64,000 nucleotides of DNA from Synechococcus sp. PCC 7335 (GTDB lineage Bacteria > Cyanobacteriota > Cyanobacteriia > Phormidesmidales > Phormidesmidaceae): contig NZ_DS989904.1 in assembly GCF_000155595.1 (NCBI RefSeq), forward strand, positions 1,385,636 through 1,449,635. Direction: 5' to 3'. Under the pieces are notes generated by a model. It saw only the letters and a program-made list of their open reading frames with translations. It had not been told where the DNA came from and did no database searches. Position 1 is the stretch's first letter. Every line of letters begins with the position of its first letter. Shown here one piece after another: positions 12,740-38,842 of the stretch. A program made the position numbers and the translations under genes.

Positions 12740-13633
12740 ATGCTGATACCAGGAATGCTGCTCTGGATGATGACGGCCTCGGGAGCCACTGACCAATCAA
12801 TGACGCTGATTCGAGCTGTTGTGATTGGGATTGTCCAAGGGCTAACAGAATTTTTGCCGATTAGCAGTACAGCTCATGTAAAAGTCGTGCCGGTTGTGCT
12901 CGGCTGGGGCGATCCGGGGGTATCGTTTACGGCAGTGATTCAGCTGGGCAGCGTTGCCGCGATTCTTTGGTACTTTTGGAACGATCTGTCTATGGTGACA
13001 GTGAATTTTCTCAAGGCGCTGTTGGCAAAGCGCTTTGGCTCGCTTGAGTTTCGATTGGGTTTAGGTATTCTGCTAGGAACGTTGCCAATCGTGGTAGTGG
13101 GCCTGTATCTAAAGCTGTTTGTCCCTGGCTACGAGGATTCAATCGTGCGTTCGACATCAGCGATCGCCATCACCTCAATTGTAATGGCGATCTTGCTGGC
13201 GATCGCAGAACTACTGGGTAAGCGCAGGCGTGATTTTGGCAAGCTAGGGCTCTTTGATGGTTTGCTTGTGGGCATTGCTCAAGCCTTTGCGCTGGTTCCT
13301 GGGGCCTCTCGCTCTGGTTCTACGCTGACGGCTGGGCTGTTCATTGGTCTCAAGCGGGAAACGGCGGCTAGATTTTCTTTCTTATTAGGAATGCCAGCAA
13401 TACTACTATCAGGGCTAGTGTCTATCACAGATGTTGTCGGCGCTGATAGTGCCGTTGCCTTAGTGCCTTTATTAGGGGGCTTAGCAGCGGCGGTAGTATC
13501 GTCTTATCTAGCGATCGCCTGGCTAATTGATTTTTTAAAAAAGCACAGTACTTGGGTCTTCGTCTGGTACCGTCTTGCGTTTGGTGCGGTGATTTTGATT
13601 GCGATCGCGCTTGGAAGATTGGAGAATATATAG
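12740..13633 (+). CDS. uppP: undecaprenyl-diphosphatase (BacA/UppP)
   Basis: UppP dephosphorylates undecaprenyl pyrophosphate to recycle the lipid carrier of peptidoglycan synthesis. The signature GIVQGLTEFLPISSTAH and the second active-site motif VPGASRSGSTLTAGLFIGL are both present among about seven membrane segments. The motif variant with Thr-Ala-His followed by VVPVVLGWGDPGVSF is the usual cyanobacterial form. I use ATG at 12740 (297 residues), giving an extra N-terminal hydrophobic helix; ATG at 12800 would give the shorter bacterial length. It acts in the same pathway as ddl and murF, which lie a few kilobases away but are not co-transcribed with it. Confidence 0.92.
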   Translation: MLIPGMLLWMMTASGATDQSMTLIRAVVIGIVQGLTEFLPISSTAHVKVVPVVLGWGDPGVSFTAVIQLGSVAAILWYFWNDLSMVTVNFLKALLAKRFGSLEFRLGLGILLGTLPIVVVGLYLKLFVPGYEDSIVRSTSAIAITSIVMAILLAIAELLGKRRRDFGKLGLFDGLLVGIAQAFALVPGASRSGSTLTAGLFIGLKRETAARFSFLLGMPAILLSGLVSITDVVGADSAVALVPLLGGLAAAVVSSYLAIAWLIDFLKKHSTWVFVWYRLAFGAVILIAIALGRLENI

Positions 13634-25538: not shown

Positions 25539-26330
25539 CTACTGCCAGTCGCCAGAAGTCACCTCAATGGGTTGTCCCGATACACTCACAACGGTTAGTG
25601 GCAAAGTTTCCGAGCGGTCTCTTCGCTCGAATTGAACGACCTGCATCCCGGTTGAGACTGGCTCTACGATCATCACGTAGCTGCTGCCATCCCATTGCAA
25701 GCGGGTAATTTGCTGGTTGAGAAGCCAGGTTTCAGCGCGATCACCTTCATTGATCTCGGCAGTGACTTCGGGTTCGTAGCAGTCCCATAGCTGATCTTCT
25801 ACGGTCCACAGTCCAGCCAAGCTGATGGGCTCTATCCGAGCGCTGAGACCATAAGTGGTAAAGCTAATAATGCGATGATCCCAGAATTGACTAGATGCCA
25901 TTTTTGATGGACTTTCTGAGTGATCGCTGTTGAGCGCTTCAGCGTACCTACCATTCTGGCTAAGCTGTTTTTCCTGCTCGCTCTCAGTAGGTCTTCGCCA
26001 GCTATCGACTGCCGCACATACCTCAAACTCAACAGGTTCAGCGTCCGCTATCGAACTTGGAGTGCTTGGATTACTCGATATCTGAGTGACCTCTGCTTGA
26101 GCAAGATTTTCGTTGTTGAGTAGATTGCCGACTATGGGCGATTCGGTGCAGCCCACGGTCATAAAGGTAGCTGCGATCGCCAACCCTAACTGCTCTAGCC
26201 GACTGATTTTCGTACTTTTCGTGTTCACTGATTGCACCACCACCACTAAATTATTTTGGGTTTGTATGTAGTTTTTGCTGTCTGTGTCTCGCTGACGCGA
26301 TCGCAGCAGTGATGTATTGACTAAACTCAA
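25539..26330 (-). CDS. hypothetical secreted or lipoprotein-like protein
   Basis: Up to 263 residues, not recognised. Residues near 42-60 form a hydrophobic helix ending in MTVGC, a weak lipobox-like sequence, so the protein may be exported and possibly lipidated at that Cys. The rest is soluble, Ser/Glu-rich, then beta-rich with ISFTTYGLSARIEPISLAGLW, DQLWDCYEPEV and QITRLQWDGSSYVMIVEP. The start is uncertain: the furthest is TTG at 26330, and a GTG at 26228 would place the hydrophobic helix at the N-terminus as a proper signal. It converges with the coiled-coil gene. Confidence 0.6.
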   Translation of the reverse strand: MSLVNTSLLRSRQRDTDSKNYIQTQNNLVVVVQSVNTKSTKISRLEQLGLAIAATFMTVGCTESPIVGNLLNNENLAQAEVTQISSNPSTPSSIADAEPVEFEVCAAVDSWRRPTESEQEKQLSQNGRYAEALNSDHSESPSKMASSQFWDHRIISFTTYGLSARIEPISLAGLWTVEDQLWDCYEPEVTAEINEGDRAETWLLNQQITRLQWDGSSYVMIVEPVSTGMQVVQFERRDRSETLPLTVVSVSGQPIEVTSGDWQ

Positions 26331-26782
26331 TAGAATAGGTAAAGCCTAGCGCTTATTGGTAGAAAAGAGATCCGAAGAGAAAGGAAATTTACCTTACTTT
26401 TATTTTGCTAATATCTTCGTTCTACGGAGGTACAAAGTCGTGTGACAATTTGTTCATTTAGCAGTTGGCAACAGGCCAACTGTTGTAACGAGGCTTAGCG
26501 TTTTCCTTTGTCCCTACCACGGCTCAAACGCTCGCCCCGAACTCTAGCCCTGTATGAGATTCAGACAACTGAGAAGGCCTGTGTGCTTGACGAGAATATT
26601 ATGCACAATGCGTTGGAGATGACTATCTTAGGGTAGACCAGTTTATAGAAAACGTAACGACTGACTGTGATGTACGAAGCTGTCACCCGCACCAACCTGC
26701 CGATAGGCCGTCTTGATAAGAGAATTTAGTCTGTCCCTCTACTCAAAAAGTAGAACACATCACCTAGCAGATCGTAGTTTGG
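26331..26782. other. 452-base intergenic region with one hairpin
   Basis: No gene is supported. A perfect eight-base hairpin CAGTTGGC/GCCAACTG lies at 26462-26482 without a T-run. This gap separates the putative defence cassette from the secreted-protein gene downstream. Confidence 0.5.
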
Positions 26783-29700
26783 CTATTGAGATTGGGCTGC
26801 TATCTTTTTAATCTCCTCAAGAGGCACTTGCTCTGCTCTGACCAGCGACATGTTAGCTTTCAAACTCGTGACATTGCCAGCGCGAATGTCAAAGAACTCA
26901 CCAACCTTTTGATTGGCTAGCTTGCTAGTAACGTCAATTTTGGCTTCGCTCAGCATTGGCTTCAGCTTTTTGAGTGCTGTGTTTTCTTTTACTTTCCCAA
27001 CAAACCAAGAGGAAATTTGATCACGGCATTTGTAATCTAGGTCACCGGGGCTTTGAGTTGCCAATAGAATTCCGATCCCAGCCGAACGAGCCCGCTTTAG
27101 GAGACTTTCCATCGGCTCTTTAGTAGATGGTTTACCTTGCGCTGGTAAATAGAGATCGGCTTCATCAAATAGGACCACTGCTTGCAGCTTTCCTGAGGGA
27201 TGTTTCTGAGCGTATCGGTTGAGATCGAGCAAAAACTGAGAGATCCAAAAAAGAATGTTGTCGTTGTCGCCTAAAGAACCCAAATTGATGATCGATAGAG
27301 GTGTTTTTTCAGATGTTGGACTAGTCAATAGTCGATCGACTGATAGTTGCTCTGATTGACTATTGAATAGATGACCTCTCATTAGGCTGAGTGTCTGAAG
27401 ATCTTCGGCAAGTTTTTTGCAGTGCTTTGGATCTAGAACGCCGATCGCGTTTACTAACAATGGATCTTCTTCTGCAATGAATTCTATGAGTCGGTTGATG
27501 CTAAGTGGGTTGTCGATTTGTAATTCGCTAAGAACTGTGATCGCCTGCCCTAAAATAGCTACGCGCGATTTGTCTTGACCATACTGCTTGTAGTTCAAGA
27601 TGCCTCCAATTGCTGTTGCACAATAGTTGGCAATTTGCTGGCGTTCGCCGCTGGGCAGTTGACCTAAGCCAGGAGGTGCGATCGCAATGCTCAACGGTCG
27701 ACCTTGTCCTGGGATGGTTCCAGGTGTGTAGACAGAAACCTCTATCTTGTCTTGTAATAGTTGACGAGACACAGCAACTTGAGGATCGCTGTTGGGCTTG
27801 TTCCAAGCCGTAGGATCTGCATAGCTGCATAAGTCACCCTTGCGATCAAGCAAGATTGCTGGAATTTCACGCAGCAGTAGCTGTTCAATTAGGCTTAGCG
27901 CTAGCGTTGTTTTTCCACTGCCGGAGCCACCAAGAAAGGCACCGTGCCGCACCAGAGCTTCTGGTTTGATCTCTACCGACGTTGGCACAGATGTGCGGGT
28001 ATGACCTAGTAGGATGGCTGAACCTGGCTTGGGTGGAGAAGAGTTGATTGTATAGGACGAAGAAGATGCGGGTCTTTTTGGTTGTGGTTCTGTAGAGCTA
28101 GTTTCGCGAGTCGGACTAGGGTATGCAGGTATAGCCGTGGGCGGTGAGTTTGGAATCTCTACTATCAGTTGCCTCAACTTAAGTATTTCTTGGATAGAGG
28201 GAAGCTGAGACAGCGGCCGTTCTGTTTGCAACCACTGCTGATAGTCAGTCCGGGAACCATGAAGTTCCCGAAACTTTTGAAGCGCTATCATTTTGCGCCA
28301 GTCAGAATCTACAACCATAGCTCTGCGGCCACCATTGCTGATGAAACTACCTATCTTCGCAGCAGTTTGTGTTCTAGGGTTGCCCGGAAATTCTGTGGTC
28401 CTAAGAATTACTGGAATGTAGCCACTAGCAGCGCTCTCAAAAGCTTGGATCTGTCGTAATAAAGCACCCCCAGCAGATGACTTTTGACATAGCCCAAGCA
28501 GCAGGGATTCTTGAATTGGGTTTTGTCCTATCTGAATATCAGTTGTGAGATAGTCTCCGCTTTTGTCCACTGTAAAACAATAGCTGTCACCTAGTTCTTT
28601 GGCGCACTGTACGATGCTGTTGCCTAGAAGGCGCAGTAGGTCGTGATCGCTCTCAGGTGGTAAAAAGGTACCAGCTGAATGATCGTTCCAAAGCTGGCTG
28701 AGCTCTGTGAACTCCGGGTCTGGGTCTGGGCCTAGGCTAGGACCAAGCTCAGGAGGCTTACCTGTAGAAATGCTCTCTTCTCTCTTTTGCAGGCACCAAT
28801 CTAGAACACGTCTAGTAGGCAAGCTTGCCAGTTTATCTACTGTTCCCGATGGAAAAGGATACAAAGAATTTTGAATATCTGATATGTCAATATCGGCTGC
28901 ATCATAAAGGTGCTGCAATCGTTTTTCAATGATCAGATGAACCTCATCGGTCGTTCTTTGCGCTTTGAGTGTGACAGGCGTAGGATCTAGCTCCAAACGA
29001 TCAACATAGGGTGTAGGCAGTTGCTTCTTCAAGCTTTCATAGAAATCGGCTAGGCAAGAGAGTACTACAACCACGTTAGGAATTTCAGCTAGGGTAACAA
29101 TGGTTTGAATAGCTCTTTGAAATCTCTGTTCGGCAAATTCCATTGTGCGTATGTCTTCTAGCTGATCGAGGCAGATAACAAAAGCGCCGCTTGTCACCGC
29201 TCGAACCAGAAGCGCTAGAGACTGTAGCACTCGTAAGGGATCGTCGTCATGATCTCGCGAAGCCATCCCACCTAACATGTCGCTGTCATAGGGCGCTAGT
29301 GGCTCGCATCGCAAAAACTTCAGCACCTTAGCGCTGATAGCCGGTTGACCTGATTGAAGATACAGCAACGCTCGGATAACGTCCAAATCCACACCACTGA
29401 ACTTCTCTAGCCCTATCACCCGATCCGCAACAGGATAGATCAGACCTAATAGCTCAGAAGGGTTGAGATTCTCTTGTCTCAATAGATGCAGCTCGCTTTT
29501 GGTCATCACGCTAGGGCTTTCTGCCAGAGCGTTTGAAATTTTCATCAATCCTGTCGTGACGCCAAAGTTCTCATAATAAGGTTTCTCAAAAGAGTCAATG
29601 GTGCTTCTCAGCACATACCGCGCATAGTTGGAAACAGCAGAGGTCATCTGCATATAGCTAAAAAATCCCTGATTACGCCCGTGAGTTTGATTACGGAAAA

Positions 29701-29944
29701 CGCGCATCAGGTGAGTTTTGCCTGCTCCCGACTCTCCTAGCAGCAGCAAAATACGCCCCGAATCATCCGCAACACCGCTATCTACTCTGCTGAGTAAGCG
29801 TTCATAAGCAGATCGAGCCGGCTGATGAATGGTGTCGACATCGTAAGGATCTGAATGCCAGATGTGATGCTGATGCGTAATTGCGTGAAAAGTATCTAAG
29901 CCTTGGTGAGAGCAAAATACGGTTAGCCGCGGTTCTATGGTCAT
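26783..29944 (-). CDS. two-module P-loop ATPase: N-terminal AAA/STAND-like plus C-terminal HerA/DUF87 motor
   Basis: A 1053-residue protein. Module one (about 35-390) has Walker A GESGAGKT at 70-77 and Walker B FVICLDQLED at about 255-264. A middle domain (about 430-590) contains GGRRAMVVDSDWRKM and has no clear family; a Pro/Ser linker follows (600-645). Module two (645-1053) is HerA/DUF87-like: GGSGSGKT at 672-679, LLDRKGDL, VVLFDEADLYLP at 923-934, and ATQSPGDLDY with a sensor. HerA-type motors are hexameric DNA translocases. It is the last gene of the minus-strand cassette, 45 bases after the 362-residue gene. The start is ATG at 29944. Motor activity on DNA is inferred. Confidence 0.85.
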   Translation of the reverse strand: MTIEPRLTVFCSHQGLDTFHAITHQHHIWHSDPYDVDTIHQPARSAYERLLSRVDSGVADDSGRILLLLGESGAGKTHLMRVFRNQTHGRNQGFFSYMQMTSAVSNYARYVLRSTIDSFEKPYYENFGVTTGLMKISNALAESPSVMTKSELHLLRQENLNPSELLGLIYPVADRVIGLEKFSGVDLDVIRALLYLQSGQPAISAKVLKFLRCEPLAPYDSDMLGGMASRDHDDDPLRVLQSLALLVRAVTSGAFVICLDQLEDIRTMEFAEQRFQRAIQTIVTLAEIPNVVVVLSCLADFYESLKKQLPTPYVDRLELDPTPVTLKAQRTTDEVHLIIEKRLQHLYDAADIDISDIQNSLYPFPSGTVDKLASLPTRRVLDWCLQKREESISTGKPPELGPSLGPDPDPEFTELSQLWNDHSAGTFLPPESDHDLLRLLGNSIVQCAKELGDSYCFTVDKSGDYLTTDIQIGQNPIQESLLLGLCQKSSAGGALLRQIQAFESAASGYIPVILRTTEFPGNPRTQTAAKIGSFISNGGRRAMVVDSDWRKMIALQKFRELHGSRTDYQQWLQTERPLSQLPSIQEILKLRQLIVEIPNSPPTAIPAYPSPTRETSSTEPQPKRPASSSSYTINSSPPKPGSAILLGHTRTSVPTSVEIKPEALVRHGAFLGGSGSGKTTLALSLIEQLLLREIPAILLDRKGDLCSYADPTAWNKPNSDPQVAVSRQLLQDKIEVSVYTPGTIPGQGRPLSIAIAPPGLGQLPSGERQQIANYCATAIGGILNYKQYGQDKSRVAILGQAITVLSELQIDNPLSINRLIEFIAEEDPLLVNAIGVLDPKHCKKLAEDLQTLSLMRGHLFNSQSEQLSVDRLLTSPTSEKTPLSIINLGSLGDNDNILFWISQFLLDLNRYAQKHPSGKLQAVVLFDEADLYLPAQGKPSTKEPMESLLKRARSAGIGILLATQSPGDLDYKCRDQISSWFVGKVKENTALKKLKPMLSEAKIDVTSKLANQKVGEFFDIRAGNVTSLKANMSLVRAEQVPLEEIKKIAAQSQ

Positions 29945-29989
29945 TATGAGAGGAAAGTCCAGACAGTAAAAAGCTTGTTCGTGGCGAAC

Positions 29990-31078
29990 TCAGTCGATAC
30001 GGATGAAATGGAATTGGCTTTGCAAATAGATAATTTCAGAAGCGGCCAAGTCCTTGGCGTTGAGCAAATAGCCTAAGTCAGCGCGGCTGAGCTGAATCCA
30101 TTCTTTGCGACTCGCTTCTAATAGCTTTTGCTTAAACGCCTCTAGCGTGAGGTTCCAATCTGGCTGCTGCGAATTCAGCGTCTCCCACACTCGCGAGATA
30201 AACACCTTATTATCTCCAAACCAGCCTTCATCAGTATCTTTAGCAGCCATCAATACGGTATTGGAAAAGTCCTCAAGCTCCAGATTGGAGAACTCTTGGT
30301 GGTCAGTAGAAGGTTTAGATATTGATTGATCTAAAACCTCAAGACCAGAGACTGATTCGGCTACAGTATCCGAGAGCGCCTGACGCAACACCGCTAAGCG
30401 CAATTCGTTGGGATCAGTTCGCCTAGCGCTGATGGCTTTGGCTACGAGCTGTTTGAGAGCCTTATCCCATTTCAAAGAATTGGGTGTTTGCAAAAGATTA
30501 TTCAGCAACGCACCCATAATGTTCCCCTGATTGAATGGTTGCTGATTAAGCTGGTGTAGCTGGTCTTGCAAGCTCTGGCTGACGGACGGATCGCATAGTT
30601 GCTGCCACAGCAGAGCGTTGCGGGTTTGGACGAGTGTCGAGAATGCCTCTACGGGCAGGTCATATTCAGACTGGAGAATAGCTGCTCGTAATCCGTCCGC
30701 ATCAGCTAGCTGCTTTCTGGTTTCTGAACTCAGCGCTGGCAAACTTAGGGCGTAGGCGATCCAGTATGTACTTTTGAGGGTAGTCCACTGCAACCTAGTC
30801 GGCAGCGTTTTTAACCCGAGCAGACTAAGAATGTGCTGAGTACCTTTATCCGTAGTCTGGTAACGGGCTTTCCCAATTAGCTCAACGTAGCTCTGTTTCT
30901 CAAGTAATAGAAGCGCTTGTTCTAGTTTCTCAGACAAGGCTGATGCAGACAGCTGACTAGCTGTAATCGCCTTTACAGCATCTTTTAACTTACTTTTAGT
31001 CAAACCGCCATCTTTTACCAGGAGCAGTCGACTAAGAATCAAATCTGAGAGGAATATGGGTTTTAGTGGACGCATCAT
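29990..31078 (-). CDS. conserved cassette protein of unknown function, 362 aa
   Basis: I do not recognise a family. The product is soluble and mostly helical. Its N-terminus (PLKPIFLSDLILSRLLLVK and the helices after it, to about residue 90) looks like a winged-helix unit, with KARYQTTDKGTQHILSLLGL as the wing. The C-terminal 85 residues (GWFGDNKVFISRVWETL, FKQKLLEASRKEWIQLSRAD, ASEIIYLQSQFHFIRID) resemble another small winged-helix domain. The start ATG at 31078 overlaps the stop of the nuclease gene as ATGA, so the two are translationally coupled and probably made in fixed ratio. A second ATG follows immediately. Confidence 0.75.
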   Translation of the reverse strand: MMRPLKPIFLSDLILSRLLLVKDGGLTKSKLKDAVKAITASQLSASALSEKLEQALLLLEKQSYVELIGKARYQTTDKGTQHILSLLGLKTLPTRLQWTTLKSTYWIAYALSLPALSSETRKQLADADGLRAAILQSEYDLPVEAFSTLVQTRNALLWQQLCDPSVSQSLQDQLHQLNQQPFNQGNIMGALLNNLLQTPNSLKWDKALKQLVAKAISARRTDPNELRLAVLRQALSDTVAESVSGLEVLDQSISKPSTDHQEFSNLELEDFSNTVLMAAKDTDEGWFGDNKVFISRVWETLNSQQPDWNLTLEAFKQKLLEASRKEWIQLSRADLGYLLNAKDLAASEIIYLQSQFHFIRID

Positions 31079-32349
31079 GTCTCCATTTGAACGGGCGCTT
31101 CAGCTAGCCGCAGGGCTAGGGCCTGGTCGATAGCATTGAGGATGTCTTCGAGGTGAGTGATCACATCTTCAGAAAGAAAGCGAAGAACCCAGAAGCCTTC
31201 TTGCTGCAAGGCAAAGTCTTTACGGCGATCACGGCGATAGCTATCAAGTGATCGCAGATGGTGGTAGCTACCATCTAGTTCAATAACGACTTTGGCCTTG
31301 TCTGCTAAAAAATCGACTTCCATAGCGCGATTACCAAAGGTAATATCAACCTGGGCGTTCACCTGAAACTGTCCGGCAGTTGCCGGCCTAGCTTCTAAAT
31401 ATTGAAACAGAAGCCGTTCTGGGTGACTGCGATAGATATCGCCACTACTATTAGCAGGTTCGTTTTGGCTAACTGTCTTAGCAAGTCCTACCGCTGCTAT
31501 TAAGATTTCCTTGGTAGCGCCGTACTGCCGCGCAGCATGAAGAATAGGCTGTATCTTATCTTCTTGATGTAGTCCGTGTTCGCCCAGCCACTGACGCAGC
31601 TCCTCTTCTTTCGGTGTGGTTAGCTTTACCATTCCGCCTCGAACAACTGCCTTCTCCCTAGATTCTGGTAGCTGCTCTATCAGCTCATCGGATTGCGACA
31701 GACTAAACAAAAGGCCAACCGGGATTGCAGGGACGGATTCAACTAACCGAGTTAGAGCTGGCAGGACAGAGTATCGAAAGAATAGCTCGCTGCAACCAGA
31801 AGGTAAGTGAATAAGGAGTCCTGGGATTGTGGTGTCAGGCAGAAGGTTAGACACAACAGCGAAACCTTGAGCAACCACAGTTGGATCATCTTCTTGTAAT
31901 GTGATTCCCTCAAGCGTGAGCGTCTCCATACATTTGGCAGGATGATTCATGCCCAGTGATATCAGTGCTCTTAGCCAAAGAGCCTGAGGAAACAGAGCAG
32001 TAAGATGCTGCCAGAATTGATTTTTTTGATATTCACCCACGTAGGCTAACCACTTAGAAAGCTGCTCAACCTCTCGTTCAGCCAATTGAGCCGTCCGCGT
32101 CAATGCTAAGGACTGCAAGTCACAGTACGAAATAGCTGTAGAGAGCCACGCACAAAAGAGCGATGGCAGTGACTCGTAGGTACAAACAGCCGTACATCGC
32201 CCCGTCTGACGCATCCATCTGACCCACAGCAGATGCGTTGCTGCAGTCCCTCCTACTAGAGTAGAAAGCGTAGGAATAGACTGATTTCGGCGGGATTGGT
32301 GCAACGACAGCTTGTTTACAAAGCCTGTTTGCTGTTGATCAACTGACAT
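31075..32349 (-). CDS. DUF559/Vsr-fold nuclease with N-terminal degenerate P-loop region
   Basis: A 424-residue protein. The C-terminal domain (about 305-412) is DUF559-like, a PD-(D/E)XK fold related to Vsr: Glu311, Asp346 in MEVDFLAD, Glu357 and Asp359 in VVIELDGSYHH, then YRRDRRKDFALQQEGFWVLRF. These acids are intact, so nuclease activity is plausible. Residues 30-250 have the strand-helix rhythm of a P-loop ATPase, but the loop reads LVGGTAATHLL (31-41), with Ala-Ala where Gly-Lys is expected, so ATP hydrolysis is unlikely. It lies five bases after the upstream gene and overlaps the next by four. The start is ATG at 32349. The catalytic role is inferred. Confidence 0.8.
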   Translation of the reverse strand: MSVDQQQTGFVNKLSLHQSRRNQSIPTLSTLVGGTAATHLLWVRWMRQTGRCTAVCTYESLPSLFCAWLSTAISYCDLQSLALTRTAQLAEREVEQLSKWLAYVGEYQKNQFWQHLTALFPQALWLRALISLGMNHPAKCMETLTLEGITLQEDDPTVVAQGFAVVSNLLPDTTIPGLLIHLPSGCSELFFRYSVLPALTRLVESVPAIPVGLLFSLSQSDELIEQLPESREKAVVRGGMVKLTTPKEEELRQWLGEHGLHQEDKIQPILHAARQYGATKEILIAAVGLAKTVSQNEPANSSGDIYRSHPERLLFQYLEARPATAGQFQVNAQVDITFGNRAMEVDFLADKAKVVIELDGSYHHLRSLDSYRRDRRKDFALQQEGFWVLRFLSEDVITHLEDILNAIDQALALRLAEAPVQMET

Positions 32350-32354
32350 AGAAA

Positions 32355-32954
32355 CTATCTAGGATGCTCAGTCGGTGAGCGCCGCGCAGCCTCTCGACCC
32401 AAGTTTTCACGCAAAAAGCGCACGTAGTGGGCCATTATGTCTGCTGTGCCAATCACATAGTTCCCACTGGGCTCATAGTCATGACACAAGAATTGCTTTC
32501 CTTCGGTAGTTAGCCAGACTTCCTTAATCACGGACTTGGTAATCTTCAGCATCCTTCGCTCCGCAAGGTTTCTAATGAGCTGTTGCTTTGCGTTGTCGGG
32601 GACTCTACTACCTAGACTTTCAGGCGTCATTGATCCTTTGCAAGCTCTTAGTACCTTTAGCTCATCTGGAGTCACCGGCAAGCTAGTGGTGTCTAGTGCT
32701 AGCAACGTTCTACCGGGCGGGGCAATTGTGAAACGAGCAATCTCGCTGCTGTAATTTACTAGTCCCTTAGATTTCAACGACTCACAAATCCGGCTGTACT
32801 CAGCCAGACTAGTTTTGCTGCTAGGACTTAATTCTGAAACACTGACTTGATAGTTGTCACATCCCAGCAGCTTCAGCAAGAACTTCACCTCTGCTGCCCC
32901 CAAGCTTGTCATCCTCTGCTTATCCAATCCAATAGCTTTCAATAGCTTAGCCAA
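32355..32954 (-). CDS. small winged-helix-like cassette protein, 199 aa
   Basis: Not assigned to a named family. Two winged-helix-like units are visible: residues about 15-95 (RMTSLGAAEVKFLLKLLGC, then ICESLKSKGLVNYSSEIARF) and about 110-170 (DELKVLRACKGSMTPESLGS, LIRNLAERRMLKITKS, VWLTTEGKQFL). It probably binds DNA or bridges cassette proteins. The start is uncertain: TTG at 32954 gives 199 residues, and ATG at 32912 with an upstream AGAGG gives 185. It lies five bases upstream of the nuclease gene and 74 bases after the methyltransferase, all on one strand. Confidence 0.72.
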   Translation of the reverse strand: MAKLLKAIGLDKQRMTSLGAAEVKFLLKLLGCDNYQVSVSELSPSSKTSLAEYSRICESLKSKGLVNYSSEIARFTIAPPGRTLLALDTTSLPVTPDELKVLRACKGSMTPESLGSRVPDNAKQQLIRNLAERRMLKITKSVIKEVWLTTEGKQFLCHDYEPSGNYVIGTADIMAHYVRFLRENLGREAARRSPTEHPR

Positions 32955-33028
32955 ACTTGATAGGGCTAAAAGCTATTCTTCCGCTTTCTTTGCGCACTTA
33001 CGTATAGGTTGTGTGGGAAGTGATCGGG

Positions 33029-33952
33029 TTAGTGATTCTGTTTCACTGCCGGTATGCGATCACCCAGCCCCACATTCCGCTCCCAGAAATACCCATCTGT
33101 ATATCCCTGAATCGAAGTATCTTGCTCAGCGAGTGCCAATCGTTTCTGTGCCCAACAGGCATAGAGTTCTTCCTGCTCTATACCCACATAGTGCCGACCG
33201 AGCTTTTTAGCCACAACAGAAGTCGTTCCAGATCCAAGAAATGGATCGAACACCACATTACCCGGGTTGGAGCTGGCTAGAACCATCTTGGCTATCAGCT
33301 TTTCAGGCTTTTGAGTAGGGTGGTCTGTGTTTTCTGCCATGGACCAGAAAGGAATAGAGATATCGGTCCATAGGTTTGAGGGATAGGTGTTGCGGAAGTT
33401 GCCTTGCTGAGTTTCTTGCCAGTCTTTGGGTTTACCAGCGTTGTCTCGATAAGGCGCTCGAACTCGCCGCTGTAGCTTCACTGCTTCCACATTAAAGGTG
33501 TACTTGTCCGACATTGTGCCAAACCAAATATCTTCAGAGGCATTTTTCCAATTGCGCTTTGCCCCGCGTCCTTTTTCGCGTTCCCAAGTGATTCGGTTAC
33601 GTACCTGAAAGTGCCTAGAAAACACCTGATAGATCGCATTTGATGACTGCCAATCACAGCACATATATATAGAGGCTGTTGGCTTTAGTAGACGCGGTAG
33701 TTGGGACATCCAGCTCGCTAGCCAGATCTGATAGTCAGCCTCAGGCATCACCTTAAAGGTCGAACCGTTGAAATCTTTCTGGCGGTTGTAGGGCGGATCG
33801 ACGATCAGCAAGTCAACGAAGCTATCTGGCATCAACGGTAAAGCAGTCAACGAATCTTGATGAATTGTCCGATCTAGAATATCGGCTACTGACTGGGGGC
33901 CACTTATCCTTAGCAATTTGGTTGCATAGGCAACTTTTTCTGCTGTACTCAT
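33029..33952 (-). CDS. beta-class DNA methyltransferase (N6-adenine or N4-cytosine)
   Basis: A 307-residue amino-methyltransferase of the N6_N4 family. The catalytic motif IV DPPYN is at 52-56 and the SAM-binding motif I DPFLGSGTT at 236-244. Motif IV before motif I defines the beta class; HPTQKPEKL at 211-219 is typical. The recognition sequence cannot be read from the protein. I choose ATG at 33952 (MSTAEKVAYATKLL); the frame runs on to a GTG at 34024. It is the first gene of the five-gene cassette and divergent from ffh. It could be an orphan methylase, but linkage to a nuclease and motor suggests self-marking. Methylation is established for the family; the role in the cassette is inferred. 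Confidence 0.88.
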   Translation of the reverse strand: MSTAEKVAYATKLLRISGPQSVADILDRTIHQDSLTALPLMPDSFVDLLIVDPPYNRQKDFNGSTFKVMPEADYQIWLASWMSQLPRLLKPTASIYMCCDWQSSNAIYQVFSRHFQVRNRITWEREKGRGAKRNWKNASEDIWFGTMSDKYTFNVEAVKLQRRVRAPYRDNAGKPKDWQETQQGNFRNTYPSNLWTDISIPFWSMAENTDHPTQKPEKLIAKMVLASSNPGNVVFDPFLGSGTTSVVAKKLGRHYVGIEQEELYACWAQKRLALAEQDTSIQGYTDGYFWERNVGLGDRIPAVKQNH

Positions 33953-34116
33953 TGTCAGGGTTCGATTGTTGGGTGCTTTTTGCTTTGACAATCTTTGCTT
34001 CGACAGCGGTTCAGGCTCCACCACTCAACTCACACAGCAGCTTATCAGATGATTTGAACCGAACCCCTTAGAATAGAAACACGTAATTAACTTTGTCTAT
34101 AACCCGATCACTTCCT

Positions 34117-35592
34117 ATGTTTGAAGCCCTCTCAGAACAATTTGAATCCGCCTGGAAAAAACTGCGTGGCCAGGACAAAATTTCGGATGCAAATATTACA
34201 GAGGCGCTGAGAGAAGTTCGGCGCGCCCTTTTAGAAGCGGATGCGAACTTGGACGTGGTCAAAGGCTTCGTCGCCGATGTTAAAGAAAAGGCCCAGGGCG
34301 CTGATGTGGTATCTGGCGTTCGCCCTGACCAGCAGTTCATCAAGATCGTCTATGACGAGCTGGTGGAGACTATGGGCGATACTAATGTCCCCTTGGCCGA
34401 TAGCGAGAACAAGCCAACGGTTGTCTTGATGGCTGGTTTGCAAGGTACGGGTAAGACAACAGCTTCTGCCAAACTCGCTCTGCATCTACGCAAGCAAGAA
34501 CGCTCTGCTTTGCTAGTCGCAACTGACGTATATCGACCAGCGGCGATTGATCAGCTTCTGACGTTAGGTAAGCAGATCGATGTGCCCGTCTTTGAGATCG
34601 GCGCGGATGCAAACCCGGTGGAAATCGCCCGGCAGGGTTTGAAAAAGGCAAAAGCAGACGGTATTGATACGGTCATTATCGATACGGCGGGTCGATTGCA
34701 AATTGATACGGACATGATGGCCGAGCTGGCGCAGGTTAAAGAAGTTGCGCAGCCAGATGAAGTATTGCTGGTTGTAGATGCGATGACAGGCCAAGAGGCG
34801 GCCACATTGACTCGCACGTTCCACGATGAAATTGGGATTACCGGCGCGATCTTAACCAAGATGGATGGCGATTCGCGCGGGGGGGCGGCGCTATCTGTGC
34901 GGCGAATTTCTGGGCAGCCGATCAAGTTCATTGGTGTCGGCGAGAAAGTTGAAGCGCTACAGCCTTTCTATCCAGACCGGATGGCCTCTCGAATTCTGGG
35001 GATGGGTGATGTGTTGACCCTAGTAGAGAAGGCCCAAGAAGAAGTTGATATTGCCGATGCAGAGAAGCTGCAAGAGAAGATTCTGTCGGCGAAATTTGAT
35101 TTTAATGACTTCTTGAAGCAGACCCGACTGATGAAAAACATGGGGTCACTAGCAGGCATCATGAAGATGATTCCAGGTATGGGGAATAAGCTCTCTTCTG
35201 ACCAGCTACAGCAGGGTGAGCAGCAGCTAAAGCGCTGTGAGGCCATGATCAATTCGATGACGATGGAAGAACGGCAGAACCCAGAAGTGTTGTCCGGTTC
35301 GCCTAGTCGGCGGCGGCGGGTGGCAAAGGGTGCTGGCTATGCCGAGAAGGATGTCGGCAAGCTGGTGAGTGATTTTCAGCGGATGCGCGGACTCATGCAG
35401 CAAATGGGCCAAGGAAATATGGGGCTACCAGGATTTGACGGTAGCTTTCCTGGTATGGGCGGCGGTCCAATGGGTGGCGGACCGATGGGGAGAAATCCTT
35501 TCGGTGGGGCGCCTAGGCCCGGTTGGCGTGGCGCTGGCGGTGGAAAGAAGAAAAAGAAGAACAAAAAAAAGAAGGGATTTGGCTCTCTATAG
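34117..35592 (+). CDS. ffh: signal recognition particle protein Ffh (SRP54)
   Basis: Ffh binds 4.5S/SRP RNA and signal sequences and delivers ribosomes to FtsY at the membrane. The order is an N domain (1-90), a G domain with GLQGTGKTTASAKLA, DVYRPAAIDQL, DTAGRLQIDTDMM and TKMDGDSRGGAALS, then a Met-rich M domain (about 310-440). The tail is unusual: a Gly/Met/Pro repeat (GMGGGPMGGGPMG) and a lysine-rich segment before GFGSL. ATG at 34117 (491 residues) fits the family start; a TTG at 34093 is also in frame. Its stop codon overlaps that of the convergent photolyase gene by six bases. Confidence 0.96.
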   Translation: MFEALSEQFESAWKKLRGQDKISDANITEALREVRRALLEADANLDVVKGFVADVKEKAQGADVVSGVRPDQQFIKIVYDELVETMGDTNVPLADSENKPTVVLMAGLQGTGKTTASAKLALHLRKQERSALLVATDVYRPAAIDQLLTLGKQIDVPVFEIGADANPVEIARQGLKKAKADGIDTVIIDTAGRLQIDTDMMAELAQVKEVAQPDEVLLVVDAMTGQEAATLTRTFHDEIGITGAILTKMDGDSRGGAALSVRRISGQPIKFIGVGEKVEALQPFYPDRMASRILGMGDVLTLVEKAQEEVDIADAEKLQEKILSAKFDFNDFLKQTRLMKNMGSLAGIMKMIPGMGNKLSSDQLQQGEQQLKRCEAMINSMTMEERQNPEVLSGSPSRRRRVAKGAGYAEKDVGKLVSDFQRMRGLMQQMGQGNMGLPGFDGSFPGMGGGPMGGGPMGRNPFGGAPRPGWRGAGGGKKKKKNKKKKGFGSL

Positions 35593-36996
35593 CCTTTGCT
35601 CAATCCATGCTTTCATGCCGTCTCTTTTCAAGATAGCTCTGTCAGACTTCGGTGCTACCCATCCGTAAATCTCCTTCTCGCTGTAGCCTTTTTTCGCATT
35701 ACCGAAGGCCCACTGCATAGAGGCATAGGTTGCAGGATCTCTGCCATCTAAAGAGAAATGGTCATTGATGTAGCAAGCCATTTCCCAGGCGGCTTCTGGT
35801 GTTCGGGTAAAGCGTAAGATTTGTTTTGACCAGTACATCCGCAGGTTGTTGTGTAGCCATCCCGTATTCGACCACTCGTTTTGAGCAGCATTCCAGGTAC
35901 TATCGGACGTGCGAGCGTTCAAAATGTCTTCATCTGATTGCAGCTCGGGGCGTGGATCGCCTGCATGAGCCTCTAGCGTCTCTTTTGCTTTGTCTGGTAA
36001 GGCCCTGTATTCATGCAGATTAGGAACGTAGAAGGCCTGATAGTGGGACCATTCTCGCCAGGTTAGGAATTCGTCTCGAAATTTCCAGGTGTAAGTTTTG
36101 GGAACCTCTGAAGATTCAATTTCAGCTAGGAGCTGGTGCGGGCTAATCATGCCAAAGTGTAGATAGGGGGATAGCTGTGAGGTGGAATGTTCTAGTGCTG
36201 CGTTGTTTCTAATCCATTTGTATTTGGCAAGGATTTTCTCTTTTAGGATTTTGACTCGAGCTTCTATGACTGCTTGAGTCGGTGGGTGCTCTTTCGAGAT
36301 TCTGATACTGTGATTGATATCGCACTGTGAAACCAGATCTTTGAGAGCTGCGTCGCTGTAGTCTGCGAAGTTGTGTTCGTTTGGTAGCGATAGCGTTTGT
36401 GCCTTGATCTGACTGGTTTGGGTCGCTGCTCGCAGCTCAGCATAACGCTCTCTCAACTCTCCGTGCGCTTTTCTAAAAGCAGGGGTTGTCTTGAGCCCTT
36501 TTGGCAGCTTGCGGACAGGAACAAGTCTAGCGGCGTCTACAAAGAATACGGTTTGATGGGCAGTTGCTAGAATTTTGTCTAATCTAGCCCTATCTCGAAA
36601 GGTAGGATCTTCGTCGGTATAGATGGCGACGGCTTCGGCGAGCAGCGATCGCATAGTCCCTTCCTCATCCTTTCGCTCTAGAGTCTGTACGCACTGGATT
36701 TTGCGCTTTCTAAGGGCGATCGCACATTCTCTAAACGCACCCAAAGCAAAGTAGAACAGACGGTCATTCGCCCAATCGATCTGCTCGTCTAACTGGCTGT
36801 AAACAACAACAGGTAAATCCAGCGCCCGCGCGTGATGGTGTGCTGCGTCTATGACCGGGTTGTCTTCACCTCGTAAGGCTCGGTTGAGGATCACTAGAAC
36901 ATAGTTGCCCTCTCCCAAAACAGGTTGATCATTCGCAACAGTCACTCTATCAGGCAGATCGCCGCTGCTTTGAGCGAACCCGATATCAACTGACAT
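35587..36996 (-). CDS. class II-like CPD photolyase
   Basis: A 469-residue photolyase that should repair cyclobutane pyrimidine dimers using light and FADH2. The N-terminal Rossmann-like part (about 30-170; YVLVILNRALRGEDNPVIDAA) would hold an antenna cofactor. The C-terminal FAD domain shows class II hallmarks: TGWLHNNLRMYWSKQIL, EMACYINDHFSLDGRDP and TYASMQWAFG. The sister gene upstream overlaps it by 11 bases (36986-36996), so both are on one transcript. The start is ATG at 36996. Its stop overlaps that of ffh. Repair activity is established for the family and inferred here. Confidence 0.85.
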   Translation of the reverse strand: MSVDIGFAQSSGDLPDRVTVANDQPVLGEGNYVLVILNRALRGEDNPVIDAAHHHARALDLPVVVYSQLDEQIDWANDRLFYFALGAFRECAIALRKRKIQCVQTLERKDEEGTMRSLLAEAVAIYTDEDPTFRDRARLDKILATAHQTVFFVDAARLVPVRKLPKGLKTTPAFRKAHGELRERYAELRAATQTSQIKAQTLSLPNEHNFADYSDAALKDLVSQCDINHSIRISKEHPPTQAVIEARVKILKEKILAKYKWIRNNAALEHSTSQLSPYLHFGMISPHQLLAEIESSEVPKTYTWKFRDEFLTWREWSHYQAFYVPNLHEYRALPDKAKETLEAHAGDPRPELQSDEDILNARTSDSTWNAAQNEWSNTGWLHNNLRMYWSKQILRFTRTPEAAWEMACYINDHFSLDGRDPATYASMQWAFGNAKKGYSEKEIYGWVAPKSDRAILKRDGMKAWIEQRL

Positions 36997-38587
36997 GAGC
37001 AGCCTCCTGAGCAGCTTTTGTAGGGAGTTTTTCAGTCGTTTTTTGTGCGCTTGCCTTGCCTTTTGAAGTACGCTTAGCTTTTGTGCGCTGAGCGGAAGTA
37101 GCCGAAGCCTTTCTTGAAGAAGTTCTGCGACGAGGTTTCTTTCTAGATCCGTGCTTTTCGTATACTTGCTCAGCTTCTTTCTTTGCTTCAGGTGTTTTCT
37201 TGATTGCCCAGAGCCTAGACTTTGCTAAGGCTGCAGCCTCTTTATGTTCCACAATGGGCGGCGGATACGAGAGTTCTCCTTCTAAGAGCCAAGGTGTCTG
37301 TAGTATTTCGTCAGGTAGTGCGGCGAGTTCTGGAACCCACTGGCGGGTAAACGTCCCTTCTATATCTTGGTCTAGCCCTTGTTTGATAGGTGAATAGATC
37401 CGGATAGCGTTGATACCTGTGACGCCTGATTGCATCTGAGATTGAGGCCAGTGGATGCCAGGCTCATAATCGGTGAAAAGCCTGGCTAGAACATCGCCAC
37501 TCTTTTGCCAGGGCAGCCATAGGTCGTAGCTAGCAAAGCTCATCAGCATCGCTCGCATCCGGAAGTTAATCCAACCGGTCGCGCGCAGGTAACGCATACA
37601 GGCATCAACAAAGGGGTAGCCAGTTTGACCTTCTGCAAACGCTCGTAGCTTAATTGCATGGTCGCCGTCGTCTCGGATGCCTGTATAGGCTCTTGCCATG
37701 GGTAGCCACTCAAGTTCAGGCTCTAGCTCTAGCTTTTGAGTGAAATGACAGTGCCAGTGCAGACGGCCCACAAAAGAAGAGAGCGATCCGGCCCAGGTCC
37801 CCCTTTCTGCTTTGGGCATAGCAGCGACTTCGGCAATTCTTTTTTGAGTGGCTTGATAGGTTTCGCGCATGGAGATCGCACCGTAGGCCAGGTATGGAGA
37901 AAGCCTAGAGCAGCCACTTTCACCAGTCACAGGCGAAGACATATCTGTACGATATCTCTCGCCGCGTTCGTACAAAAAACTGCTTAGAACCTGAAGCGCT
38001 GCGTTTCTACCGGGTGGCTGCAGTGCGGTGATGCCATCGTGCTTCAGCCCTAGTACTTCGGGCGATGGCATCGTTCTATCTTCAGAATGCGCTACAAAAG
38101 AGATGCTTTCTGGCAGTGATGCGATGGGTTCTGCCATCAGCGAATCCCACTGCTTAGCCCAGTGATCGCGGTTTATTTTGGAGCCTCGCCATACGCCAAA
38201 CTGAAGCGGCTCATGGAAGGCTACCCCTGCTTGCTGGCACCACTTTCTAACCGCTTTATCCCGTTGAAACGTCCAGTTGTTGCCTGTTTCCTGATGTGCC
38301 CAAAGCTCGATATTGCCGTATGTTTTCTGGAGTCGACTGAGCACCTCTACTACATCACCAGAGGCGATCGCCATCGACCCACCCAGCTCTTCTAATGCCT
38401 CAATCGTTTCTTCTACACAGCCCTTGAGGAACAAATACTGCCGATAGCTCGTATCTTCTAGTGCCCAGTAGTCTGGCTCGACAACATAAAGCGGTAGAAC
38501 CGGTCCCTTTTGCGCAGCGAACGTCAAGCAGCGATGATCGAAGAGTCGAAAGTCTTTTTTGAACCACACAACTTGTACAGCGCTCAT
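36986..38587 (-). CDS. cryptochrome/photolyase family flavoprotein with basic C-terminal tail
   Basis: A 533-residue protein. Photolyase N-domain (VQVVWFKKDFRLFDHRCLTFAA, about 5-135) and FAD-binding domain (about 195-460): SRLSPYLAYGAISMRE, GRLHWHCHFTQKLE, TGYPFVDACMRYLRATGWINFRMR and the DYEPGIHWPQSQMQSGVTG loop. It belongs to the photolyase/cryptochrome superfamily but is a different class from its neighbour; whether it repairs DNA or signals is open. The last 60 residues are rich in Lys, Arg, Ser, Ala and Thr, like a histone H1 tail, which may bind DNA. The start is ATG at 38587 (a TTG lies one codon earlier). It is first in a two-gene operon. Confidence 0.87.
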   Translation of the reverse strand: MSAVQVVWFKKDFRLFDHRCLTFAAQKGPVLPLYVVEPDYWALEDTSYRQYLFLKGCVEETIEALEELGGSMAIASGDVVEVLSRLQKTYGNIELWAHQETGNNWTFQRDKAVRKWCQQAGVAFHEPLQFGVWRGSKINRDHWAKQWDSLMAEPIASLPESISFVAHSEDRTMPSPEVLGLKHDGITALQPPGRNAALQVLSSFLYERGERYRTDMSSPVTGESGCSRLSPYLAYGAISMRETYQATQKRIAEVAAMPKAERGTWAGSLSSFVGRLHWHCHFTQKLELEPELEWLPMARAYTGIRDDGDHAIKLRAFAEGQTGYPFVDACMRYLRATGWINFRMRAMLMSFASYDLWLPWQKSGDVLARLFTDYEPGIHWPQSQMQSGVTGINAIRIYSPIKQGLDQDIEGTFTRQWVPELAALPDEILQTPWLLEGELSYPPPIVEHKEAAALAKSRLWAIKKTPEAKKEAEQVYEKHGSRKKPRRRTSSRKASATSAQRTKAKRTSKGKASAQKTTEKLPTKAAQEAAHVS

Positions 38588-38842
38588 CAATTGCTATCCG
38601 CTAACGGTAAGGGTCTGATCAAAACAGCAGCGTCAATCAAGAAGAAATAAGTCCTTCGAATCAAACAGCGCTATTTTATTCAAACATTAGAAGATTCTGG
38701 GTGCCCAGAGCATCATCCTTCCTACTTACTTTTTACTTTTGTCTGTAAGCGCCTGTATAGCAAAGCGCGGATGCATACGCTTCAAGAAGGCAATTGTGAT
38801 TGTGTTTGTTGTTCTGGTAATTTACTCACTATTCCCGTTAGT

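Follow-up and report, generated by a model that had tools for sequence, protein, structure and literature searches.

A three-gene nuclease and HerA-like motor cassette, probably directed against invading DNA, replaced most of a related resident cassette in Synechococcus sp. PCC 7335

A stretch of 64,000 nucleotides from Synechococcus sp. PCC 7335 (contig NZ_DS989904.1, positions 1,385,636 to 1,449,635 of the forward strand; hereafter the window, in whose coordinates positions are given) carries five closely spaced minus-strand genes, encoding a DNA methyltransferase, a winged-helix-like protein (WH199), a nuclease, a protein named U362 and a fused ATPase. Do these genes form a single machine? 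A sequence-only reading had taken them for a five-gene defence cassette of an undescribed kind, in which methylation would tell self from non-self. Our analyses demonstrate that the locus is not one five-gene unit: the conserved unit consists of the nuclease, U362 and the fused ATPase, and it has replaced the AAA and the restriction-endonuclease-like (REase)/FtsK genes of a resident sister cassette, leaving WH199 in place. With a probability of about 0.66, we regard the locus as holding a cassette of three genes, of the HerA/FtsK-capture type and directed at invaders, that arrived by this replacement. The genes are as follows.

33029-34024, minus strand: methyltransferase, 331 amino acids (aa) from a GTG, or 307 aa from the ATG at 33952
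32355-32954, minus strand: WH199, 199 aa from a TTG, with a likely start at 32912 (an internal ATG)
31075-32349, minus strand: nuclease, 424 aa, with a C-terminal DUF559 (Vsr-like) domain
29990-31078, minus strand: U362, the middle gene of the cassette, 362 aa
26783-29944, minus strand: fused ATPase, 1053 aa, with an AAA_16/STAND-like N-terminus and a HerA/FtsK C-terminus

Results

The open reading frame (ORF) listing confirmed the five genes, their order and the gaps of 74, 5, -4 and 45 bases between them. Only the last three genes keep company elsewhere. The order nuclease, middle gene, ATPase recurred in all 13 loci with visible upstream genes, from three phyla, with gaps of -4 to 16 bases between the first two genes and of -4 to 45 bases between the last two. 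The middle gene distinguishes two types: U362 lies between nuclease and ATPase in all six type B loci (the window, Leptolyngbya sp. BC1307, filamentous cyanobacterium LEGE 07170, G422, G396 and G397; G and L numbers are our handles for genomes and loci), and a protein of 212-235 aa, resembling a winged helix-turn-helix (wHTH) protein, occupies its position in all seven type A loci (G215, G447, G402, G401, Tsukamurella, Nonomuraea and Methylobacterium). Outside the count stand G412, with only the U362 gene before the contig end, and G423 and G413, with upstream genes invisible; G441 is the same assembly as BC1307, with identical proteins, and was counted once. The ATPases of the two types share 20-23% identity, yet they align over their full length (HHalign 100%, 982 columns). 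In BC1307 (L002), the genes run methyltransferase, a threonine-synthase-like gene, WH, nuclease, U362 and ATPase; in LEGE 07170 (L003), the nuclease, U362 and ATPase stand alone.

The distribution is patchy. A seven-row ATPase profile, searched in 63 genomes of the order, all of one family, found a full or near-full fused ATPase in 12 (G000, G215, G396, G397, G401, G402, G412, G413, G422, G423, G441 and G447), those of G397, G401 and G413 being in pieces or cut by contig ends; remnants were seen in G429 and G430 and, in G423, at another location than that of its ATPase. In a 386-genome sample of the phylum, where two first-look candidates were scored per genome and some may be missed, both ATPase halves lay in one open frame only in the own genome and in G215, the latter with a DUF559 gene and a short middle gene upstream. 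The nuclease profile matched 29 of the 386 genomes, outside the own genome by the DUF559 end only, and the match in G215 was the sole one beside an ATPase of this type among those read. A 126-aa open frame elsewhere in the own genome also matches DUF559 (L079; G000:C1:951508-951834). Spread beyond Cyanobacteriota amounts to three records of a plasmid collection, from Tsukamurella, Nonomuraea (a record of 11.85 Mb) and Methylobacterium, in which a DUF559 gene and a gene of 223-235 aa lie upstream of the ATPase; searches of plasmid records with U362 and with the nuclease returned zero relatives. As judged from the sequences, the nuclease and HerA-like motor belong to a cassette that is conserved, patchy in its distribution and probably directed at invaders, and to this extent the earlier claim of a defence cassette stands.

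The motifs of the three proteins are intact. The ATPase has the two modules that the sequence-only reading had recognised: AAA_16 (Pfam, 2.4e-10), AAA_22 and, just above the cut-off, nSTAND1 match its N-terminus, and DUF87/HerA (1.4e-10) and HerA_C (1.7e-8), both exceeding the Pfam cut-off, match its C-terminus. The key residues are G70...K76-T77 and D260-Q261 in the first module and G673...K678-T679, D927-E928 and Q964 in the second; all 12 aligned ATPases (the window included; G397, G401, G413 and G423 left out) share both Walker A motifs, along with D260-Q261, D927-E928 and Q964, without variation. The DUF559 assignment likewise held (Pfam 6.4e-13, residues 311-411): the candidate active-site residues E311, D346, E357, D359 and H364 do not vary among the 13 nucleases aligned, and the protein is predicted to be an active REase-like enzyme. 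U362, which the sequence-only reading had listed as an unknown, matches no Pfam family above the cut-off and no PADLOC family. Between the window and BC1307, the ratio of nonsynonymous to synonymous differences per site (pN/pS) is 0.17 for the ATPase and 0.39 for the nuclease, with synonymous sites near saturation (pS 0.60-0.74). This purifying selection and the invariant P-loop and DUF559 residues were counted in favour of the counter-invader reading. Directly downstream of the ATPase or an ATPase remnant, three genomes have chance-looking ORFs that share a translated stretch, GMAGFEPTAPSSRTKFRKSSNP (L084 359-673, L103 10348-10605 and L111 10088-10366); ARAGORN found zero tRNA there.

The methyltransferase behaves differently. 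It is of the beta class, as had been stated: the N6_N4 methylase family matches at 3.6e-44 (Pfam), and the sequence has DPPY before an FxGxG-like motif, the beta order. Its start at 33952 is probably off and the true one further upstream, as 17 close orthologues align from residue 4-14, upstream of that position. METHYLTRANSFERASE orthologues (E <= 1e-100) occur in 18 of the 386 genomes, the own included, with at most five candidates scored per genome; the other 17 are 57-65% identical, that of G008 with an internal stop. Around 11 orthologue loci (about 1.5 kb on each side), no other window gene was found at E <= 1e-8. The gene is thus conserved without the others in 17 of the 385 other genomes, an outcome that the sequence-only reading had itself named as contrary to its proposal. 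PMC6560206 terms the three chromosomal methyltransferases of Synechocystis well conserved in the phylum; M.Ssp6803II (sll0729) was considered as a possible identity of the window enzyme. Distant relatives (E <= 1e-10) occur in 206 of 50,697 phage records; a methyltransferase 57% identical lies in one "Bacteriophage sp." record from human faeces (L048 1179-2117), where the surrounding genes look bacterial by eye.

A five-gene restriction system dependent on modification would have the methyltransferase mark self DNA and a nuclease-ATPase complex cut what is unmarked, and the methyltransferase does lie beside one cassette or the other in all seven genomes of the genus, with genes intervening in BC1307 and G443. 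Among the 13 cassettes, however, it is nearby in the window and BC1307, and tblastn (E <= 0.01) over 14-26 kb found no relative at any of the ten others whose flanks can be read (the contig of G397 is too short to judge and is outside this count). In LEGE 07170 and G215, methyltransferase and cassette are on different contigs, and within the genus the methyltransferase stays while the cassette changes. Because ten of ten other cassettes are without it and because it is conserved in cassette-free genomes, the methyltransferase is an orphan, a flanking neighbour rather than a conserved part of the cassette. The 386-genome sample, the 11 orthologue loci, the two named relatives and the cassette loci together led us to reject the restriction-modification reading, to which we leave very little probability; the proposed self/non-self discrimination by methylation is likewise not supported.

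WH199 has a history of its own. The description as winged-helix-like is weakly supported: PADLOC gives marginal wHTH-type matches (0.0018 and 0.0026), and no Pfam family exceeds the cut-off. Its annotated TTG start is probably off, with 32912 the likelier one, near which the relatives in BC1307 and G442 begin. WH199 is homologous (HHalign 100%, 169 columns) to the initial portion of the 273-285-aa protein that the first gene of a sister cassette encodes. In L055 and L056, this cassette consists of WH, AAA of 657 and 690 aa and a gene for an 842-aa protein, with exonuclease, PD-(D/E)XK, FtsK-alpha and FtsK domains in L055. WH199 is the shortened first gene of such a wHTH-AAA-REase/FtsK cassette. 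Both WH199 and the WH of BC1307 are without the C-terminal domain of the five full-length copies in the genus; about 110 residues are missing in WH199, and the BC1307 protein extends about 20 residues beyond it. We rejected the idea that WH199 is a decayed pseudogene: its frame is open and its pN/pS is 0.36, similar to that of the nuclease, though again with synonymous sites near saturation. The type A middle protein also resembles the sister-cassette WH protein (HHalign 81.8%, E 1e-5). A homology of U362 to the short wHTH-like protein was considered but did not emerge, HHalign against type A giving 3.2%.

The site after the methyltransferase carries a cassette in all seven same-genus genomes: the sister WH-AAA-REase/FtsK genes in five (G438, G439, G440, G442, where they are broken, and G443) and WH-nuclease-U362-ATPase in two (the own genome and BC1307). 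The comparison is bounded by the contig of G439, which starts within the methyltransferase, and that of G442, which ends before the right flank. Judged by eye, what separates methyltransferase and WH is a threonine-synthase-like gene in BC1307 and a toxin-antitoxin-like pair in G443. The site is delimited by the following features.

34093-35592, plus strand: ffh-like gene for a signal recognition particle GTPase, left flank, named by sequence only
26680-26783, no strand: right edge of the replaced segment, G443 homology resuming at 26680, 103 bases beyond the ATPase stop
25539-26330, minus strand: U263, right flank, with relatives at the same place in the genus where the flank is readable

DNA homology between the window and G443 stops at 33051, reappears as a short WH patch at 32915-32827 and resumes at 26680, past the ATPase. 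In BC1307, homology to G443 extends through the WH gene as far as 7406 and is picked up again at 13196, within the FtsK gene and 19 bases after the ATPase stop; the FtsK stub left there, 211 aa and 60-68% identical to the FtsK end, begins after the Walker A motif, as read from its residues. The three-gene cassette has replaced the AAA and REase/FtsK genes, and WH199 is what remains of the earlier resident. Because both WH copies are without the C-terminal domain and that of BC1307 is about 20 residues longer, the most economical account, though not a proven one, is a single swap in an ancestor, after which the copy in the line of the window was trimmed. A search for repeats at the swap edges (words of 10-12 bases) gave one 10-base inverted match only, which we took as chance. 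The presence in G438 of one shortened WH in addition to a full one hints at repeated turnover at the site.

Related arrangements were met elsewhere. Cyanobacteria repeatedly carry a WH-AAA-REase/FtsK cassette, in some cases including a 3'-5' exonuclease domain and in others lacking it (L055, L056, L119, L121, L122 and L123); that of L056 has extra AAA genes and a second WH. A third arrangement combines a 219-234-aa protein, an AAA ATPase and a protein of about 490 aa (L057 6555-10551, L058 2629-7418 and L116 5381-9696), the last being DUF1802 in L057, the one locus given a domain scan. In Tsukamurella (L046 6888-16951), the cassette lies between the ribosomal protein genes rplN and rpsQ, and the stretch also contains a VapB/PIN pair and a helicase gene. 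In G422, a Cas12k gene, together with a divergent gene that by eye looks MerR-like, lies 1.8 kb from the cassette (L103 12117-13973 and 14035-14679); the Cas12k gene matches at 5.4e-226 in PADLOC and a Cas12j-labelled model at 2.3e-235. We do not claim this copy as cargo of a CRISPR-associated transposon, as inspection of the ORFs by eye across 54 kb picked out no tnsB, tnsC or tniQ, and Rfam had no match at its gathering thresholds. In G423, a gene matching the candidate phage-defence family PDC-S46 (3.7e-266) lies about 2.3 kb from the ATPase (L102 5587-7761). Beside the locus in the window, at 35587-38590, are two neighbouring genes that by sequence look like cryptochromes or photolyases.

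Discussion

What might the cassette do? We infer a defence role, a complex of the three proteins and the trigger of its action from the parts, which are DNA-binding-like proteins, an AAA/STAND module, a HerA motor and a Vsr-like nuclease. The N-terminal AAA/STAND module and U362, perhaps joined by WH199, would recognise invading DNA or load onto it; the HerA module, presumably hexameric, would pump the DNA, and the DUF559 nuclease would cut what is pumped. This is the scheme that Rakesh, Aravind and Krishnan put forward for Orc/CDC6-coupled HerA/FtsK capture systems (PMC10853773). The Cas12k gene of G422 and the PDC-S46 gene of G423, within about 2.5 kb of the cassette, were counted for a counter-invader role.

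Several points weigh against such a role. The genes around the locus (20000-42000) look like housekeeping genes rather than a defence island, the G+C content of the cassette (0.46-0.48) is near that of the flanks (about 0.48-0.52), ATPase homologues occur in only 3 of 72,556 plasmid-collection records, and pattern scans of viral contigs with the ATPase and U362 alignments confirmed zero relatives. The AlphaFold models are also poor, with a mean predicted local distance difference test score (pLDDT) of 41 for U362, where about residues 263-340 fare better, and of 33 for the ATPase.

The housekeeping surroundings and the purifying selection relative to BC1307 would equally suit a DNA repair or recombination machine, akin to archaeal HerA-NurA, or some other function unrelated to invaders; pairs of HerA motor and nuclease do also perform end resection, according to PMC12977600. 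The patchy, decaying and exchangeable distribution, however, and the same three genes in distant phyla argue against it, and we consider it improbable. Somewhat better placed, while still unlikely, is abortive infection of the STAND type, in which the AAA/STAND module would sense a phage product, the HerA-nuclease pair would cut DNA indiscriminately, instead of singling out the invader's, and the cell would die. The nSTAND1 and AAA_16 matches are consistent with it, as is D260-Q261, which occupies the place of Walker B and does not vary among the 12 ATPases; on the other hand, Pfam recognises no sensor repeat domain (among the best 25 of 41 families), and the wHTH-like proteins and HerA motor suggest that the substrate is DNA. 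We keep to a counter-invader cassette of the capture type.

The swap allows a bolder, tentative reading that we hold to be rather doubtful: the interval between ffh-methyltransferase and U263 may be a slot where DNA-capture machines are exchanged, the motor-nuclease part changing while the WH, as the recognition gene, stays; WH199 would have become an adaptor that serves a motor from a different subtype. If it were true, the recognition and destruction modules of HerA/FtsK-capture systems would be interchangeable. In any case, the genus offers a natural experiment, close relatives carrying either version at one site, with both swap edges visible in BC1307. The compact cassette, about 5.6 kb, would represent defences found otherwise only as sequence predictions, and it makes testable whether a HerA-type motor and a nuclease can stop phages or plasmids without DNA modification and whether one recognition module can stand in for another.

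Comparison with known systems

Is the system undescribed? No complete system fits the five proteins among the PADLOC families listed, which are exhaustive for four of them and limited to the best 25 of 73 in the case of the methyltransferase, and no NCBIfam equivalog among those listed reaches its cut-off; on the other hand, similar neighbourhoods were predicted in 2024, so the claim of novelty holds only in part. Among titles and abstract starts, with subscription journals and preprints outside the scope, we found no experiments on this gene arrangement. Type II restriction-modification does not fit, the methyltransferase being absent beside the nuclease in the ten other readable cassettes. 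Likewise, among the families listed, nothing corresponds to PglZ, BrxC/DUF6079 and DUF4007 of BREX or of the BREX-related capture systems described in a 2026 paper (PMC12839542), the BREX-type matches being sub-threshold and confined to the P-loop (BrxC_BrxD 0.002 in Pfam, BrxD 0.018 in PADLOC). With MADS, the HerA module shares a resemblance to mad8 (PADLOC 3.9e-20), as do the modules of other HerA/FtsK cassettes; of the remaining mad1-mad8 set, only a marginal mad3 P-loop match (0.0039) appears among the families listed.

Nearer are the systems built on HerA/FtsK motors. DndFGH and SspFGH have in common with the cassette a C-terminal motor combined with nuclease and wHTH logic (PMC10853773); the stub in BC1307 is similar to the C-terminus of SspH (1.4e-55), and the sister-cassette AAA weakly matches DndF (7e-4). 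However, the complete PADLOC lists for the ATPase, nuclease, U362 and WH199 give only DndH, at about 855-989 of the ATPase with a best E of 4.6e-6; the DndH/SspH architecture of about 1700 aa is absent, and phosphorothioate (PT)-modification genes were unrecognised at the window locus. HerA-DUF4297 and HerA-SIR2 likewise pair a HerA-type ATPase with an effector, but the effector is another one, and the ATPase of the cassette has an extra AAA module fused to HerA; against the antiphage HerA model NF042943 it scores 23.9 bits, the cut-off being 800.

The closest likeness is to the Orc/CDC6-coupled HerA/FtsK capture systems predicted by Rakesh and colleagues from neighbourhoods with HerA, an Orc/CDC6-type ATPase, REase and wHTH (PMC10853773, section 22), a class independently proposed as anti-invader (sections 22 and 26). 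Shared are the AAA-type ATPase with HerA, the REase-like nuclease, the small DNA-binding-like proteins and the compact, patchy neighbourhoods; the sister cassette adds FtsK-alpha and, in L055, 3'-5' exonuclease domains as in that class. Membership of the Orc/CDC6 clade, an inactive REase insert and wHTH folds are features of the class not demonstrated in this cassette: no Orc/CDC6-specific model is among the Pfam and NCBIfam families listed for the ATPase. ATPase residues 433-546 are modelled as alpha-beta-beta-beta-alpha-beta-alpha-beta with nearly all pLDDT <50, and no Pfam family listed matches there. The class has two REase families, and the word DUF559 is absent from the main text of PMC10853773. 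On these sequence features, the cassette resembles the predicted HerA/FtsK-capture class, and its swap is well resolved.

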